Assembly (NCBI GenBank): GCA_002839795.1
Contig: PGYS01000006.1
Span: 1 to 64,000 of the forward strand
Source of the DNA: Ignavibacteriae bacterium HGW-Ignavibacteriae-3
Lineage (GTDB): Bacteria; Bacteroidota; Ignavibacteria; Ignavibacteriales; Melioribacteraceae
Direction of reading: 5' to 3'
Length of the DNA: 64,000 nt
This document shows, one piece after another, positions 45,776 through 47,505 of this stretch. Position numbers and translations under genes: made by a program. A model generated the notes under the pieces. The model saw only the letters and a program-made list of their open reading frames with translations. It was not told the origin of the DNA and made no database searches. Every line of letters starts with the position of its first letter. The first letter of the stretch is position 1.

Positions 45776-45850
45776 CGGGGTGTAGCGCAGCCCGGTTAGC
45801 GCGCTTCGTTCGGGACGAAGAGGTCGGGAGTTCGAATCTCCCCACCCCGA
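45776..45850 (+). tRNA. tRNA-Pro(CGG)
   Basis: CGGGGTG...CACCCCGA acceptor, anticodon arm CTTCG-TTCGGGA-CGAAG, T-arm GGGAG-TTCGAAT-CTCCC. Confidence 0.93.
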
Positions 45851-45857
45851 CAGTAAC

Positions 45858-46109
45858 ATGAATACTTTTACTACATATATTTTATACAGCAGATCAAAGA
45901 ACAGGTACTACGTCGGGCACACCGGCAACTTTTCCAGAAGATTCATAGAACACAATTCCGGTCAAAATATTTCCACCAAATTTGGCGCTCCGTGGGAATT
46001 AATATTTACCAAAGAATTCACAACTAAATCCGATGCATACCACCTTGAAATAAAAATCAAGAAAAGAGGCATAAGCCGATTTCTTTCAGATCATAATTTG
46101 CCCGGTTAG
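45858..46109 (+). CDS. Mini GIY-YIG nuclease (83 aa) inserted between tRNA-Pro and a tRNA-Pro relic
   Basis: YILYSRSKNRYYVGHTGNFSRRFIEHN ... DAYHLEIKIKKR; ATG 8 nt after tRNA end; stop lies in the duplicated D-arm. Confidence 0.88.
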   Translation: MNTFTTYILYSRSKNRYYVGHTGNFSRRFIEHNSGQNISTKFGAPWELIFTKEFTTKSDAYHLEIKIKKRGISRFLSDHNLPG

Positions 46110-46167
46110 CGCGTGGCGCCTTCGGCGCCAAAGAAGGGAGTCCCAAATTGCAGGGCTCCCCACGGAG
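46100..46167 (+). pseudogene. Altered tRNA-Pro-like relic with rewritten anticodon arm and expanded T-arm
   Basis: GCCCGGTTAGCGCG identical to tRNA-Pro 45790-45803; then TGGCGCC-TTC-GGCGCCA, GGGAG-[TCCCAAATTGCAGGG]-CTCCC, CAC. Confidence 0.75.
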
Positions 46168-46182
46168 AATAAATAAAAATAT

Positions 46183-47505
46183 TTAATATGGTCCTGAGAC
46201 GACTCCGCCCTGATTATGAGAAGTCCAGTACCAGCCAGTTTTTCCATTAGGGTTCGCTGCCGATTTTACCGGTTGAAGAACCCATTGAATATATGAAGCA
46301 GTAAAAGATTGAGTAGATCCCTGTTGAGTAACGCTTCCTGTGTAAGGCGTAGTTCTTTGCTGAACATACCAGCGGTATGACCATGACCCACTTCCAGGCA
46401 CATTTGGGTTAACCTGAACGCCATTAACTTGATAGTTCGACGGCAACGTGGGGAAATTTCCACCTACAGTTAATGATTGCGCCTTTCCAAAATCGATTCC
46501 CAGCCTATTCTGTTGCTTAAGCCAAGCAATGAGTGTGGCCGCTGGAAGCTGGCCAGACGACAATGTAAGGGAGGATTGTGCACTGACAAATGTTTTAGTT
46601 CCGGAACCAGAAGATAATTGATAATAATCAAAATTCCCTAGGACAGCTGTTCCAGGATTTGCAGTAATACTTACTGCGCTCCCAATGGTATAAGTAGTAA
46701 AATGGGTTACCGGTGCGGTGGCCGATGTTCCGGCAGAATTAACAGTAGCAGTAAAGCCTGAATTAGTGTACTGCCCGGTTGTTTCATTTAAAAGCTGAAG
46801 AGGGAAAGTCGCACCGGGAGTCATCGCGCTCGCCAAAGGGATTGAAATTGTTACAGGCACGTTGAAAACTGTTCCGCTCGGTCCGAACTGCGCAGCGCCT
46901 AAAATTGCTGTGTTGGCGTCAGCCGGGGCCGGTACCTGAGCTATGGAAATAGGAGCGGCTGAAAGTACTACATTTGACGATACAGCATTCGGCGGAACGC
47001 TGACGGTTACAGGAGCAGTTGATACACCTGCTTGTGCTGGGGCAGAAACTGTACCTCCTGATGCCGGAGTAACAGTCGCTGACGTGGAGACCACTTTACT
47101 TAATAATATATCACCAACAGCAGCAGAATTTGATTCTTTTTCAATAGATGCTCTTTCAGAGTTGAATCCGTAACCGGCTTTACTGGCGGCTAAATTAAGA
47201 GTATTATCATTTAAATTTGTTACGTCATAAGCATATTTTCCGGTATTATCGGTAAGTATTGACGTGAGCACCGTACCTCCGGCGTTTGAGATCCTTATTG
47301 TAGCTCCATTAATGGCAGTAAGATTGGATGCATCTTTTACAAAACCGGATAAAACAAGCGGTTGAGCCGGCGGTACCGGCGGATTAGGAGCAGGCAATTC
47401 TGGACCTACTCGTGAGCTTTCGCAGCTGAATATAAGCATAGATGCTAAAGCAAAAAGAAAAAGAGAGTATACCGGTCTTAAAGTAGCGGAACTATTCCTT
47501 TTCAT
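46183..47505 (-). CDS. Secreted lipoprotein with carboxypeptidase-regulatory-like/Ig-like domain
   Basis: Lipobox (LIFSC), VLSGFVKDASNLTAINGATIRI. Confidence 0.65.
   Translation of the reverse strand: MKRNSSATLRPVYSLFLFALASMLIFSCESSRVGPELPAPNPPVPPAQPLVLSGFVKDASNLTAINGATIRISNAGGTVLTSILTDNTGKYAYDVTNLNDNTLNLAASKAGYGFNSERASIEKESNSAAVGDILLSKVVSTSATVTPASGGTVSAPAQAGVSTAPVTVSVPPNAVSSNVVLSAAPISIAQVPAPADANTAILGAAQFGPSGTVFNVPVTISIPLASAMTPGATFPLQLLNETTGQYTNSGFTATVNSAGTSATAPVTHFTTYTIGSAVSITANPGTAVLGNFDYYQLSSGSGTKTFVSAQSSLTLSSGQLPAATLIAWLKQQNRLGIDFGKAQSLTVGGNFPTLPSNYQVNGVQVNPNVPGSGSWSYRWYVQQRTTPYTGSVTQQGSTQSFTASYIQWVLQPVKSAANPNGKTGWYWTSHNQGGVVSGPY

Follow-up and report, generated by a model that had tools for sequence, protein, structure and literature searches.

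Tiny nuclease elements of about 300 bases at bacterial RNA genes

Tiny nuclease elements of ~300 bases are widespread at RNA genes of bacteria and are undescribed in the literature searched. The unit is a nuclease ORF together with a spare, hairpin-bearing partial target, placed immediately next to a complete target gene on the same strand; relatives lack it at orthologous sites, and tandem amplification of the unit is common. These units are probably (we put the chance at roughly 0.6) isotype-specific mobile elements moved by nuclease-provoked recombination, with each lineage specialised on one isotype of structural RNA gene.

One such element, ~310 bp in size (ORF plus partial tRNA copy), follows a tRNA-Pro gene in the window, the 64,000-nucleotide stretch of Ignavibacteriae bacterium HGW-Ignavibacteriae-3 (contig PGYS01000006.1) that was analysed (Table 1). 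The sequence GCCCGGTTAGCGCG at 46100-46113 is an exact 14-nt repeat of the tRNA-Pro D region at 45790-45803, and the last ORF codons, CCC GGT TAG, fall within it. The hairpin that follows is succeeded at 46136-46163 by GGGAG, TCCCAAATTGCAGGG, and CTCCCCAC; the T loop of this distal part is enlarged and palindromic, and its acceptor is decayed. An earlier note, made by a model from the letters alone, had described the D-arm copy, the perfect hairpin in the place of the anticodon arm with a T-stem remnant behind it, and a frame that stays open for 20 codons 3' of the TAG, and the sequence bears out all three. The tRNA-ORF gap, given there as 8 nt, is 6 nt from the tRNA end called by ARAGORN. Readthrough of the TAG, also suggested, was discarded as unnecessary: Pro-type copies take their stop from the D-loop GGTTAG, beyond which the frame stays open merely through tRNA-derived sequence plus hairpin. 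The local tRNA-Pro scores 26.5 against the flank of the ORF, compared with a maximum of 23.7 for 100 other-isotype tRNAs, and because its score tops theirs and the layout recurs in ~100 other loci, the copy exceeds chance. A hairpin of matching place and size is found in L011, and one of matching place in L013, L019, and L023. Between tRNA-Pro and its piece lies the mini ORF alone, with no site-specific recombinase encoded, and an Rfam scan of the locus detected no intron family and no group I intron; the tRNA-Pro is uninterrupted.

Table 1 Features of the tRNA-Pro element in the window, and loci of a sister clade discussed in the text.
Feature	Position	Strand	Evidence or remark
Intact tRNA-Pro(CGG), target gene	45776..45851	+	ARAGORN; Rfam 66.2 bits; same sequence in empty relatives
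83-aa single-domain GIY-YIG nuclease ORF	45858..46109	+	Pfam PF01541 5.3e-15; AlphaFold; dN/dS
Stop TAG of the GIY-YIG ORF	46107-46109	+	Inside the tRNA-Pro copy
ORF-proximal part of tRNA-Pro copy (tRNA nt 15-28)	46100..46113	+	Sequence; alignment
Perfect 7-bp hairpin TGGCGCC-TTC-GGCGCCA replacing the 17-nt anticodon arm	46114..46130	+	
Distal part of tRNA-Pro copy (variable region and T arm)	46131..46163	+	Sequence; alignment
Right flank; homologue directly 3' of the tRNA in empty G005 (L214) and G001 (L218)	46164..46200	.	Comparison of relatives
Sister-clade loci, outside the window	L003 1477-1753 (own genome, C145); L054 1038-1314 (G005); L083 1121-1433 (G028); L025; L016		

The AlphaFold model of the window protein is a compact single domain (pLDDT 94), and its nearest folds are UPF0213 (1zg2) and Slx1. 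No DNA-binding domain beyond the GIY-YIG fold was found with Pfam or in the model, and similarity to the group I intron endonuclease/Seg subfamily stays below threshold (NCBIfam grpIintron_endo, 15.6 bits against a cut-off of 56). Across 21 ORFs of many isotypes eight columns are invariant, with the expected catalytic residues among them; Y7, Y18, G20, R28, H32, and E64 do not vary in this set. The dN/dS ratio of the window ORF against its relatives is 0.09-0.12, and among related ORF copies it spans 0.04-0.32, mostly <0.2, ratios that indicate purifying selection on the mini GIY-YIG ORFs.

tRNA linkage is strongly enriched in this family. A short GIY-YIG ORF lies ≤300 nt from a tRNA in 109 loci, where random placement would give linkage of the order of one per cent (estimated from tRNA density), and in 98 of these 109 a piece of a same-isotype tRNA sits across the ORF and outscores every other-isotype tRNA. 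The enrichment, the partial tRNA repeats at other copies, and the intactness of the adjoining tRNA had all been anticipated in the earlier note, and none of the contrary outcomes named beforehand (orthologous loci with the ORF ancestrally unlinked to tRNA-Pro, no enrichment, no tRNA-like repeats) occurred. The window's own genome has nine GIY-YIG matches, two of them long proteins and seven short, and five of the seven short ORFs neighbour a tRNA or what is left of one (Pro, Ala, Leu, Ser with a decayed ORF, and Cys). Relatives of the same order hold many short ORFs, frequently in tandem arrays with periods of ~300-450 bp; the regions fetched from them were picked for such arrays and are not a sample of array frequency. 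A contig search with one genome per species gave 80 relatives, most of which adjoin a tRNA, nearly always on the same strand. An all-isotype profile was too diverse for this search and a Cys/Ser-based profile was used instead, so that these 80 loci are biased towards one sequence type. Hosts belong to Bacteroidota (including named isolates), Patescibacteria, Cloacimonadota, and Omnitrophota, and in two Patescibacteria genomes all nine short ORFs fetched are tRNA-linked. Many carriers are metagenome-assembled genomes; cultured carriers are Flavobacterium defluvii DSM 17963, F. circumlabens, F. piscis, Pedobacter helvus, and Olivibacter sitiensis. One locus, L068, is a full element at tmRNA. A phage origin was discarded, as just one of 32 relatives on viral contigs lies ≤300 nt from a same-strand tRNA, and that one lacks a tRNA piece.

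The ORFs also group by the isotype of the tRNA that they adjoin, across genera, as they did in a first, earlier tree. On a tree of 233 sequences the isotype label changes 33 times, compared with at least 80 times in 200 shuffles, and the nearest ORF from another locus shares the isotype in 90 of 128 cases (chance, 0.13). About 28 related ORFs form one clade that never adjoins a tRNA. For some isotype clades, vertical inheritance with losses could be part of the cause. Both points weigh against the mobile-element reading.

Two geometries occur. In the 'down' geometry the order is tRNA, ORF, and 3' piece; in the mirror 'up' geometry, which had not been foreseen, a 5' piece is followed by the ORF and then by the intact tRNA. 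A GC-rich perfect hairpin is present in 85 of 101 clear pieces, compared with 98 of 2020 shuffled regions (4.9%), the commonest cores being TCCGCC..GGCGGA and TCCCGA..TCGGGA. Within an isotype class the hairpin almost always takes the place of one fixed tRNA segment (Met 38-47, Cys 39-56, Asp 51-59, Val 25-34, and Pro 29-45), and the Pro segment is replaced in both the up and the down types. The half of the copy at the host flank is better kept than the half at the ORF side, in down elements (31 vs 8, p=3e-4) and in up elements (11 vs 3, p=0.06). Pieces are frequently just a third of a tRNA. Gaps between tRNA and ORF are very short (1-20 nt) in the Pro, Cys, and Ser classes; in many classes a terminator lies between the two, and in many loci the tRNA terminator is duplicated too. 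The idea that the ORF takes its 3' end from tRNA sequence holds for Pro, Gly, some Asp, and Ala elements and fails for many classes in which the stop comes ahead of the piece. Copies in L009, L020, and L077 are decayed.

Elsewhere in the genomes the hairpin motifs are scarce, with four in the window's own genome and 2-6 per Flavobacterium genome, some of these within elements, and on these counts a dispersed REP family was discarded as the source of the hairpin. TCCCGA palindromes are commoner in Ignavibacteria (5-34 per genome), where some of them belong to tRNA and 5S arrays that lack an ORF.

In the window's own genome, L009 (620-946, C156) has a decayed GIY-YIG ORF with its start codon in a tRNA-Ser 5' piece, followed by an intact tRNA-Ser, and L001 (1400-2150, C26) has a mini nuclease ORF flanked by two degenerate tRNA-Cys copies, with an integrase-like gene beginning just past one of them; the element may here have encountered the attachment site of an island. 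In L075 (G023, C43), an element with a tRNA-Gly piece sits within a tRNA-Tyr/Gly/Thr/Trp cluster.

Empty orthologous sites, another expectation of the earlier note, exist at two tRNA genes. Within the genus of the window, four genomes (G000, G006, G009, and G003) carry the element at tRNA-Pro and five (G001, G002, G004, G005, and G007) lack it; in G005 and G001 the sequence homologous to the element's right flank lies directly 3' of tRNA-Pro. In Flavobacterium G050 and G057, which are empty, the native terminator lies directly 3' of the initiator tRNA-Met; in the carrier L160 the tRNA-Met is followed by a different terminator and the ORF, and then by a tRNA piece and the native terminator. In L161 and L178 an ORF of the L160 type, again with its terminator, adjoins a second tRNA-Met gene and is accompanied by a piece of the tRNA concerned. 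Compared with the same isotype from other genomes, the host's own tRNA is the best fit to the piece in 83 of 103 loci. Because of this fit, and because the Flavobacterium ORFs at two tRNA-Met genes bear local pieces, the piece is a product of local duplication or conversion and has not just travelled with the ORF; this, too, tells against the mobile-element reading.

The tRNA-Pro sequence is identical in the four carriers and the five empty genomes, and it is the flanking context that differs. Since the gene is the same in both, carriers are without the sequence-level protection that classical homing requires, and to judge from these alleles the identity is a problem for simple homing. Resistance of carriers through flanking context is possible.

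For mobility by nuclease-provoked recombination we propose the following course. The nuclease would cut or nick the tRNA gene, or a structure formed by it, near the segment that the hairpin replaces, and recombinational repair via the shared tRNA half would insert the unit while a single complete tRNA remains. Crossing over within the 3' half would give tRNA-ORF-piece (down), and one in the 5' half piece-ORF-tRNA (up); on this crossover scheme the host-side half of the copy would be better preserved because it is the displaced original. The hairpin would destroy the target in the spare copy, which could therefore be neither cut nor used as a tRNA, and direct repeats of the shared half would permit tandem amplification and loss of the ORF. 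Self-cutting might be avoided by inefficient cutting of the donor, as discussed for free-standing GIY-YIG enzymes (PMC13096335), by cutting of a transient structure, or by recognition of flanking context.

Tandem arrays of hairpin pieces lacking an ORF are found at tRNA-Asn, tRNA-Pro, and tRNA-Asp (L295, L296, L297, and L300). In L295 (300-1100, G024), eleven tandem 67-bp hairpin-bearing 5' pieces lie upstream of tRNA-Asn. In L298 (223-600, G037), a 5S rRNA gene precedes two duplicates of its own 3' end, with a similar hairpin and a duplicated terminator, and no nuclease ORF is present. In L222 (1503-1700, G030), the tRNA-Pro has the T stem GGGAG and the next, ORF-less copy has the T stem GTAGG as in G024, which may mean that a foreign 3' half has taken the place of the functional one.

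These arrays, that at 5S rRNA included, bear on an alternative in which the nuclease acts on the hairpin and not on tRNA sequence; the mobile or amplifying unit would then be the hairpin-bearing piece of an RNA gene, and cleavage of the hairpin or of a cruciform would start recombination. The nearest solved structures, UPF0213 and the structure-specific Slx1, and the perfect inverted repeats that bound the ORFs of a sister clade (below) point the same way. We nonetheless consider this alternative unlikely: hairpins are scarce outside these contexts in Flavobacterium, the ORF clades track tRNA isotype and so would need recognition of tRNA sequence as well, and the ORF-less arrays may be deletion derivatives.

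Isotype specificity, purifying selection, and the short tRNA-ORF gaps of the Pro, Cys, and Ser classes, which imply co-transcription, would also suit a system at the RNA level, in which the enzyme binds or cuts its cognate tRNA, the pseudo-tRNA is a decoy, antitoxin, or processing signal, and the linkage provides co-expression, not mobility. Such a system is quite improbable, given that the GIY-YIG enzymes characterised so far, to our knowledge, all act on DNA, that in so many classes a terminator separates the ORF from the tRNA, that a piece is so often a mere third of a tRNA, and that patchy presence, decayed copies, and tandem arrays look selfish. Still harder to credit is an origin without mobility, by occasional local tandem duplication of the 3' or 5' end of a tRNA around a resident nuclease gene, followed by decay. 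It would explain why the piece mostly fits the host's own tRNA best and why tRNA terminators are duplicated as well, but leaves unaccounted for the spread of isotype-specific ORF clades over different genera and phyla, the occurrence of both mirror geometries, the hairpin substitution at isotype-fixed places, and the foreign terminator in L160. An artefact of assembly or annotation, or chance similarity, might come to mind with so many metagenome-assembled carriers, but its likelihood is negligible, being already refuted by the same architecture in cultured isolates, and the tRNA-piece and hairpin controls are far exceeded.

Recombination provoked by an isotype-specific nuclease has its closest parallel in SegB of phages T4 and T6, a free-standing GIY-YIG homing endonuclease that lies near tRNA genes, cleaves within them without isotype preference, and promotes tandem amplification of the tRNA region along with truncated segB (PMC13096335). 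The mini elements, known here from sequence, share with SegB a GIY-YIG nuclease near tRNA genes and tandem amplification. They differ in having a single-domain protein of ~80 aa from a different subfamily, nearest to UPF0213/Slx1, and in being chromosomal in bacteria, isotype-specific, and equipped with a hairpin-swapped partial tRNA copy. As with SegB-type homing endonucleases, the catalytic residues are conserved, the ORF lies outside any intron or intein, and empty orthologous alleles exist; the carrier and empty tRNA-Pro alleles, however, do not differ at the target. The element would thus seem to work like a free-standing homing element that targets tRNA genes, and is not a proven member of that class. 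Islands that tyrosine integrases insert into tRNA and tmRNA genes likewise regenerate the target and leave a displaced fragment at the other end (Islander, PMC4383910), and both tRNA and tmRNA serve as targets of the mini elements too; these, in contrast, have no integrase, total ~300 bp, carry a hairpin in place of an arm in the fragment, and show tandem arrays and both 5' and 3' fragments. With UPF0213/COG2827 (YhbQ/YazA-like) and Slx1, the best structural matches, the mini protein shares a single GIY-YIG domain. The rtT repeats at E. coli tyrT follow the tRNA in tandem, each with a copy of the tRNA 3' end; we know of no GIY-YIG ORF or hairpin swap there, both of which the mini elements have. 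The element hairpins resemble REP/RAYT and other bacterial palindromic repeats in being GC-rich palindromes of REP size, and differ from them in being few per genome (in the window's own genome and Flavobacterium) and at fixed places in tRNA copies.

In the literature searched, most of it outside subscription journals, we found no article tying GIY-YIG ORFs to bacterial chromosomal tRNA genes, and the accessible part of a 2006 study of the GIY-YIG superfamily (PMC1564403) does not mention tRNA linkage. We would tentatively go further, at somewhat under even odds, and regard the elements as a new category of minimal mobile element in their own right: ~300 bp long, with the nuclease as sole gene product and with derivatives that lack the ORF, on tRNA, tmRNA, and 5S rRNA genes in several phyla, cutting at a specific arm, turning one isotype-specific arm or half-arm into a hairpin, and always leaving a working gene. 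As mobile elements they would rank with the smallest known that encode a protein, and their many isotype-specific lineages would be a natural specificity series in which a compact single-domain nuclease has been re-aimed at different tRNA arms. The family accounts for many partial or pseudo-tRNA genes and for many annotations of 'GIY-YIG nuclease family protein' beside tRNAs, and the swap of a hairpin for an arm raises the question of how a selfish nuclease labels its own copy while leaving an essential gene unharmed.

Related ORFs also occur away from tRNA genes. In a sister clade (Table 1), mini GIY-YIG ORFs lie between perfect inverted repeats of ~13 bp, ACCCCGTGAGATA..TATCTCACGGGGT, inside protein genes, namely those for a RAYT-like transposase (at the same codon in two genomes), a tyrosine integrase, and a four-helix-bundle-like protein. 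When the flanks are joined, the reading frame becomes continuous again in L003, in one L054 copy, and in L083; these ORFs may be either plain insertions or something that is spliced or bypassed. The tRNA-free clade of ~28 ORFs (L005, L032, L074, and L014) is frequently found among other dispersed palindromic repeats, for example CCCCGAACTTGTTTCGGGG ahead of the ORF and TCAGCATGACA behind it, and in L005 and L032 a similar gene comes next after the ORF.
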